Source: Albifimbria verrucaria
Taxonomy: Eukaryota; Ascomycota; Sordariomycetes; Hypocreales; Stachybotryaceae
Length of the DNA stretch: 64,000 bases
Direction of reading: 5' to 3'
NCBI GenBank assembly: GCA_020081605.1
Contig: JAHREC010000020.1
Span: forward strand, 62,001-126,000
Shown piece after piece: positions 36,491 to 37,055 of the stretch. Within the stretch, counting starts at the first letter, position 1. Each line of letters starts with the position of its first letter. Below the pieces are notes generated by a model. It ran no database searches, had not been told where the DNA came from, and worked only from the letters and a program-made list of their open reading frames with translations. The position numbers were made by a program, and so were the translations under genes.

Positions 36491-37055
36491 TCATCTCGAT
36501 CTGAAAGACCTAGGAGAGCCAGTTGTTGTATGTTGTTGTTCTCCTCGAAGGCGACGAGCAAGTTGTATGTCTTTGCTCTGTATAGTGACTCTTTTAGCAT
36601 GAATGGCGGCAAGATTTGTATCTTCAAAAAGTCCAACAAGGTATGACTCGACAGATTCCTGAAGGGACCCTATTGCAGACGACTGAAAGCGTAGGTCGCT
36701 CTTAAAGTCACGAGCGATTTCGCGAACCTTCCATGAGAGTTTACGTATAAGCCCTGCTCCATTCACAATGTGGAGAGTAAAAACTTACAAGCCGCTGGAA
36801 TGGGAGCTTGCGTATCAAAAGCTCAGTAGACCTCTGGTAACGACGAATCTCGCGAAGAGCCACCGTACCTGGTTTATATCGCCTAGCCTTCTTCACGGGC
36901 CAATTTTTATTGCGAGCTGAGAAACAGAGTGTATATCAGCAGATGTTAGGTGGCTTTGAGGATTATGGGAGATATTTACGAGCTTTAGAAGCTAGTCGTT
37001 TGCGTGGAGCTTTGCCGCCGGCACTTTTTCGAGCAGTTTGCTTTGTGCGAGCCAT
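36491..37055 (-). CDS. Divergent histone H3 variant
   Basis: Three exons (37055-36980, 36916-36789, 36727-36491) with introns of 63 and 61 nt, both with clean GT-AG ends, encode 146 residues; canonical fungal H3 has 136. The tail starts [20 protein letters not shown], keeping K4, K9, K14, K18 and K23 but with T11A and Q19R. After residue 24 the usual ARKSAPSTGG region becomes PRNKNWP. Three residues are missing and the K27-S28 pair is lost, while the VKK of K36/K37 remains. The histone fold ([20 protein letters not shown], then [20 protein letters not shown], then the [17 protein letters not shown] end) is intact, with Q76R, A87S, A91S, S96G and C110A. A novel 13-residue basic extension ([15 protein letters not shown] region) ends the protein. 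It is not CENP-A-like in loop 1. It acts in chromatin if expressed. Presence of introns argues against a processed copy. Confidence 0.88.

Follow-up and report, generated by a model that had tools for sequence, protein, structure and literature searches.

Does the divergent histone H3 gene found here in Albifimbria verrucaria encode a working chromatin protein that escapes marking at lysine 27, or is it a duplicate on its way to decay? It lies in a window of 64,000 nucleotides, the whole stretch of DNA analyzed (C17:62001-126000 of a 48,410,092-base assembly in 41 contigs); positions given below without a contig are those of the window. The gene has three exons on the minus strand (37055..36491) and a spliced product of 146 aa. 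Exon 1 (36980..37055) opens with the ATG at 37055 and ends with the first base of codon 25, and intron 1 (36917..36979; 63 nt, phase 1) interrupts the same codon as intron 1 of canonical H3. Exon 2 (36789..36916), in which K27 and S28 are replaced and three residues are missing, ends in FQRL and is followed by intron 2 (36728..36788; 61 nt, phase 0, acceptor AAG) and by exon 3 (36491..36727), which encodes VREIARDF...RRLRGE and then 15 residues. In position and phase both introns agree with those of the canonical H3 gene on contig C13, and the reading frame and splice dinucleotides are intact. AAG is the sole intron 2 acceptor that preserves the frame, and no clear branch point was seen in this intron on inspection; splicing of intron 2 is plausible from the sequence. 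The product scores 143.7 bits against the Pfam Histone profile (core histone), the top match among solved structures is an H3 chain (4kud, 3.5e-64), and the complete histone fold together with the H3 tail start places the product among the non-centromeric H3 histones. Translation, Pfam, and PDB matches thus bear out the first-pass annotation, which had described an intact three-exon divergent H3 with a near-complete fold. Were intron 1 retained (36917-37055, minus strand), translation would stop after 30 residues, leaving a peptide of the tail alone that ends ...SKARKYLP. Within intron 2 (36728-36788, minus strand), ATACGTAAACTCTCA is similar to ATACGCAAGCTCCCA, the part of exon 2 that codes for IRKLP; the likeness may come from duplication of an exon edge or be fortuitous.

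We compared the variant residue by residue with the canonical H3 of the same genome, numbering Met as 0. The substitutions are T11A, Q19R, A25P, K27N, S28K, P38A, H39R, K56R, Q76R, A91S, S102G, and C110A, where S102G and the 28-39 stretch were read from translations because canonical H3 was masked at codons 66 and 102. Three fewer residues lie between 28 and 35. At the K27 site the variant reads RNKNWP where canonical H3 has RKSAPSTGG, so that no lysine stands at 27, and RGE is followed by 15 residues versus 2 in canonical H3. Retained are K4, K9, S10, K14, K18, K23, K36, K37, and K79. The first description already included T11A, K27N, S28K, a shortening by three residues, and a basic C-terminal extension of 13 residues; Q19R, A25P, P38A, H39R, K56R, Q76R, A91S, S102G, and C110A are additions to that description, as is the presence of five identical genomic copies. 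The same genome encodes a separate CENP-A (C41:1569952-1570343, L020), likewise a divergent H3-family histone. CENP-A has an RPQGKDFRWQ insertion and a different tail, whereas the variant has the canonical tail start and a canonical loop 1 (DFKSDLRFQ), and a CENP-A identity of the variant was rejected.

The variant has been under protein-level constraint through most of its history. Across 92 comparable fold codons it differs from canonical H3 by 67 nucleotides (6, 4, and 57 at codon positions 1, 2, and 3) and by 4 amino acids. When 67 differences were placed randomly in a neutral simulation, the mean was 42.5 amino-acid changes and the minimum 30 in 20,000 trials, and a stop codon arose in 86% of trials. 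The codon test, which is blind to a recent loss of function, rules out old debris (4 changes versus a neutral minimum of 30), and the earlier statement that the gene is not simple debris gains from both the intact frame and the absence of any simulation below 30 changes (0/20,000). By the Nei-Gojobori method the fold codons give pS 0.854 and pN 0.046; since this pS is saturated no ratio is reported, and the comparison with canonical H3 that takes the place of the dN/dS first proposed is not neutral. The 28 N-terminal codons give pS 0.812 and pN 0.097. GC3 is 0.80 in canonical H3 versus 0.37 in the variant, so the synonymous distance owes part of its size to differing codon use. By the usual dinucleotide indices and their customary thresholds, we found no RIP-like signature in the window, and RIP was rejected as the origin of the divergence.

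The genomic setting of the variant is a compartment of small contigs. The assembly comprises 11 contigs of 1.4-7.3 Mb (44.4 Mb) versus 30 contigs of 11-359 kb (3.97 Mb, 8.2%), and all five copies of the variant (C9, C17, C18, C19, and C37) lie on small contigs of 150-267 kb, in keeping with the specialized H3 of an accessory-like region that had been suggested. The 565-bp gene is identical in the five copies. Identity across the 8 kb around it is 99.75-99.86%, with 7-10 substitutions and 3-10 indel columns, and these substitutions exclude assembly duplicates of one locus. A genome search with the PF00125 profile gave at least 29 exon-level matches, of which small contigs hold 18 and large contigs 11. 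Among the 18, translation and tblastn identified five copies of the variant, three of a second H3 type, and four of a degenerate type. The 11 on large contigs include canonical H3 (C13), CENP-A (C41), and H2A, H2B, and H2A.Z (C6); those at C41:1584562, C6:3267064, and C15:4825569 had no H3 match. All 12 extra H3-like loci that we found are thus on the 30 contigs below 0.4 Mb, a count of contig loci in which contig number need not equal chromosome number: the first 1,500 bases are common to C17, C18, and C19 (0-1 mismatch) and the last 1,500 to C9, C17, C18, and C19 (0 mismatches), so contig ends are assembly-graph breaks. The canonical H3 gene adjoins an H4 gene. The PF00125 list missed core H4 exons, and a separate search for H4 gave two matches, both on large contigs (C13 and C8), with none on small contigs. 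C9 and C12 start with telomere repeats, and GC content is 0.43-0.48 at the accessory loci sampled and 0.49-0.53 at core loci. The small contigs are most naturally read as belonging to an accessory chromosome, or to several, that carry large duplicated segments, and we infer that these chromosomes are dispensable.

The other H3 types of this compartment differ from the variant and from each other. The second type (205 aa; L017 3393-4108 on C31) is present in three copies, two of them intact and identical (L017 and L018, the latter on C34); the third (L019 on C37) is two bases short, and its frame is broken in the assembly. Its fold is intact, with 14 changes at 92 unmasked positions, including S87K and G90E in what we take to be the chaperone-contact region. 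It has 108 residues before RYKPG versus 40 in canonical H3, in a new tail with acidic stretches. K4 and K9 are lost, and exon 2 opens IPRKSAR, keeping a K27-like RKSA, so a loss of K27 in every accessory H3 type was ruled out. The degenerate type (C12:256323, C17:4531, C18:4531, and C19:4531; L013-L016) has the same frame break in all four copies. Canonical H3 itself has two one-base gaps as assembled; such assembly errors make single frame slips a weak sign of decay.

Both intact H3 types travel with cyclin genes. A cyclin paralogue in the window (11423..12454, minus strand; Cyclin_N 2.8e-35, with Cyclin_C) has cyclin B1 as its nearest PDB relative (1.9e-20), and its ORF was matched on all five contigs that bear the variant, while on C31, C34, and C37 the second H3 type is flanked by two further cyclin ORFs. 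Small contigs hold 11 of the 18 cyclin matches in the genome. Against the core cyclin on C15, the window cyclin shows 84% identity over 192 codons with dS 0.73. The small-contig paralogues (the window gene, C31:107686 and C31:117340, and their copies) have dN/dS of 0.115, the window value, and 0.144 versus the core copy, and are under purifying selection. The window also holds an ankyrin-repeat protein (17835-19214, plus strand), an NPHP3_N (NACHT-like) piece (6537-7031, minus), a terpene synthase piece (48132-48803, plus), a weak patatin match (50344-51057, plus), and two P450 pieces (26786-27415 and 62888-63421, both minus), a gene mix typical of accessory DNA.

An alternative reading is that the variant is a spare general H3. 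On this account the element would bring its own H3 and cyclin as an aid to replicating, segregating, or becoming established after transfer, and the changes at K27 and T11 would be relaxed side effects. The near-canonical fold with 4 changes in 92 codons fits such a role, as do the cyclin paralogues beside both intact H3 types and C110A, which the PDB alignment shows to be the residue also found in yeast; in the passages drawn on, PMC12774646 cites Habig and colleagues as suggesting that accessory-encoded histone modifiers play a role in chromosome transfer. However, the changes are concentrated in the tail from A25P to H39R, with the remainder of the tail conserved, and a C-terminal extension is added; neither of the two H4 matches is on a small contig. 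We regard a spare H3 as possible, though unlikely.

A SET-domain ORF (37823..38245, minus strand; Pfam SET 4.8e-15, PDB 6.6e-11) lies 0.77 kb upstream of the variant on the same strand. Its PDB relatives are of the H3K36 type, SETD2 being the best, followed by ASH1L and NSD, and it has the post-SET cysteines CLCGSKNC. A cysteine-rich segment, RSCEYCKGPGCSCISTKVSTAKPQICNT (38242..38325, minus strand), is a possible AWS-like part of the same gene that stands in another frame as assembled. All five copies share a G4 run here, and the neighbor may be broken as assembled. Since the copies are recent duplicates, the SET ORF beside each of the five is not independent evidence. Genome-wide, 10 of 24 SET matches are on small contigs, five of these being copies of the neighbor ORF. 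EZH2-type CXC matches are on small contigs in three cases out of four; there SET matches adjoin the CXC matches, giving putative EZH2-like CXC and SET genes at C1:6682-7211, C2:6681-7212, and C26:55240-55770 (L066, L081). The fourth is the host gene on the large contig C15 (C15:4735846). The only VEFS match, a SUZ12 VEFS box, is at C13:1509014, and the only Pre-SET match is on C22, a large contig of 1.7 Mb. The EZH2-type, VEFS, and Pre-SET genes on large contigs lead us to expect PRC2 and a DIM-5-like enzyme in the host. A JmjC demethylase in the window was rejected: the PF08007 (JmjC_2) match at 59877-61202 (plus strand), in a 441-aa ORF with an HVD...H pattern, scores 18.5 bits versus a cut-off of 22. 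All five PF02373 matches in the genome are on large contigs.

These host genes bear on the idea, put forward in the first-pass annotation, that nucleosomes with this histone would be blind to K27 marking. Blindness follows from the K27N/S28K sequence and is relevant here because the host has EZH2-type CXC and SUZ12 VEFS genes. The Eurotiomycetes setting assumed at first was mistaken, as the host is a hypocrealean Sordariomycete (Stachybotryaceae), and its rDNA ITS looks like that of a Myrothecium/Paramyrothecium-type fungus. PRC2 is absent from Aspergilli and close Penicillium species according to passages of PMC9676040, so the K27 argument would fail in such a host.

Our preferred reading, held tentatively and at somewhat less than an even chance, is that the gene encodes a functional non-centromeric H3 variant of an accessory-chromosome-like multi-copy compartment, where it stands alongside cyclin and histone-methyltransferase paralogues, and that PRC2 cannot mark it at K27. 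The variant would be expressed and spliced and, since its fold is nearly unchanged, would most likely pair with host H4 and enter ordinary nucleosomes. K56 acetylation is a mark of new H3, and DIM-5 recognizes H3 residues 8-12, with T11 important. Nucleosomes with the variant would carry no K27 methylation by host PRC2 and no K56 site, and with T11A a DIM-5-type enzyme might methylate K9 less well. Whether concentrated on the element or spread thinly through all chromatin, the variant would lower H3K27me3, and this would lessen both the silencing and the mitotic loss of the accessory chromosome. A K27-less H3 and an adjoining H3K36-type SET gene would act in the same direction.

Published work on other fungi bears on these steps. 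H3K27me3 covers the accessory chromosomes of several fungi and can destabilize them (passages of PMC7348808 and PMC6510446). In Zymoseptoria, these passages report that kmt6 deletion lowers accessory-chromosome loss about 4-fold (PMC7348808) and that accessory chromosomes become more stable when H3K27me3 is lost (PMC6510446). In F. fujikuroi, loss of the H3K36 methyltransferase Ash1 is described together with more K27me3 and accessory chromosome loss (PMC7348808, in part). Counter to our reading, the passages of PMC12774646 report that in F. oxysporum the mutants of kmt6a and of ash1 had subtelomeric deletions and duplications, not more stability. The EZH2-like genes on C1, C2, and C26 and the RKSA of the second H3 type also tell against it, as they indicate that K27 escape is not pursued uniformly across the compartment; the AAG acceptor of intron 2 and the possibly broken SET neighbor weigh on the same side.

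A bolder version would have a selfish accessory chromosome building its own chromatin, with a K27N H3, T11A, a second H3, SET methyltransferases, and mitotic-type cyclins all serving to evade silencing and loss. We consider this version doubtful, and the selfish character that the first-pass annotation had entertained for the variant would be an extrapolation.

Decay enters again in a narrower form, as a duplicate whose function was lost recently. Such a loss would be invisible to the codon test, the identical H3 copies are carried along in segmental duplications, and the AAG acceptor of intron 2 and the broken relatives (the degenerate type in 4/4 copies alike, the second type in 1/3 as assembled) would all fit. 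The variant's own intact frame and splice dinucleotides, its strong past constraint, and a window with no RIP-like signature by the usual dinucleotide indices speak against recent loss, which we judge improbable. Improbable as well is a domesticated host regulator, made at some stage or under stress to replace H3 at K27-silenced genes in the manner of Arabidopsis HTR15 and only incidentally located on these contigs: plants do have a regulatory K27-lacking H3 (PMC10016324, in part), but the variant occurs only in the small-contig compartment, together with the other H3 types and cyclins.

A limited search of open-licence literature, covering titles and abstract openings, returned no fungal accessory-encoded H3 lacking K27 and no H3 variants that travel with cyclins. 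Habig et al. (2024) reportedly described a horizontally transferred accessory chromosome in Metarhizium robertsii / M. guizhouense, and Metarhizium, too, is hypocrealean. A meeting abstract (PMC10687773) places two putative histones, along with several histone-modifying enzymes, on the transferred accessory chromosome of Metarhizium; the passages of PMC12774646 add that the histone genes include H3 homologues, and name a methyltransferase and an acetyltransferase. Both fungi, as far as these passages go, thus have H3 homologues and histone-modifying enzymes on accessory or accessory-like DNA, with two putative histones there and 5 + 3 + 4 H3-like loci here, the latter known from one assembly. 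The same PMC12774646 passages report that accessory Kmt6 copies of F. oxysporum (Kmt6b/Kmt6c) act. These resemble the genes on C1, C2, and C26 in being an accessory EZH2-type chromatin toolkit beside a core copy, whereas a writer of K27 methylation differs from an H3 without K27. An accessory H3 in Fusarium is not mentioned in those passages, and the word "cyclin" is absent from that paper. Arabidopsis HTR15 (H3.15) is, like the variant, a natural H3 without K27, and chromatin containing it cannot carry K27me3 (passages of PMC10016324); there it is a plant developmental gene outside accessory chromosomes, while the variant is on small accessory-like contigs. The origin of the variant is likely independent of HTR15, since its introns are those of this fungus's canonical H3. 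Accessory histones and Kmt6 are thus already published, and a K27-less accessory H3 appears to be new. A natural K27-less H3, maintained by selection in five identical copies on accessory-like contigs, offers a single-gene handle on the persistence and movement of accessory chromosomes and hints that such chromosomes may package themselves to avoid silencing. Among viral contigs, we found one weak H3-like locus (L041), with 41% over residues 28-61.
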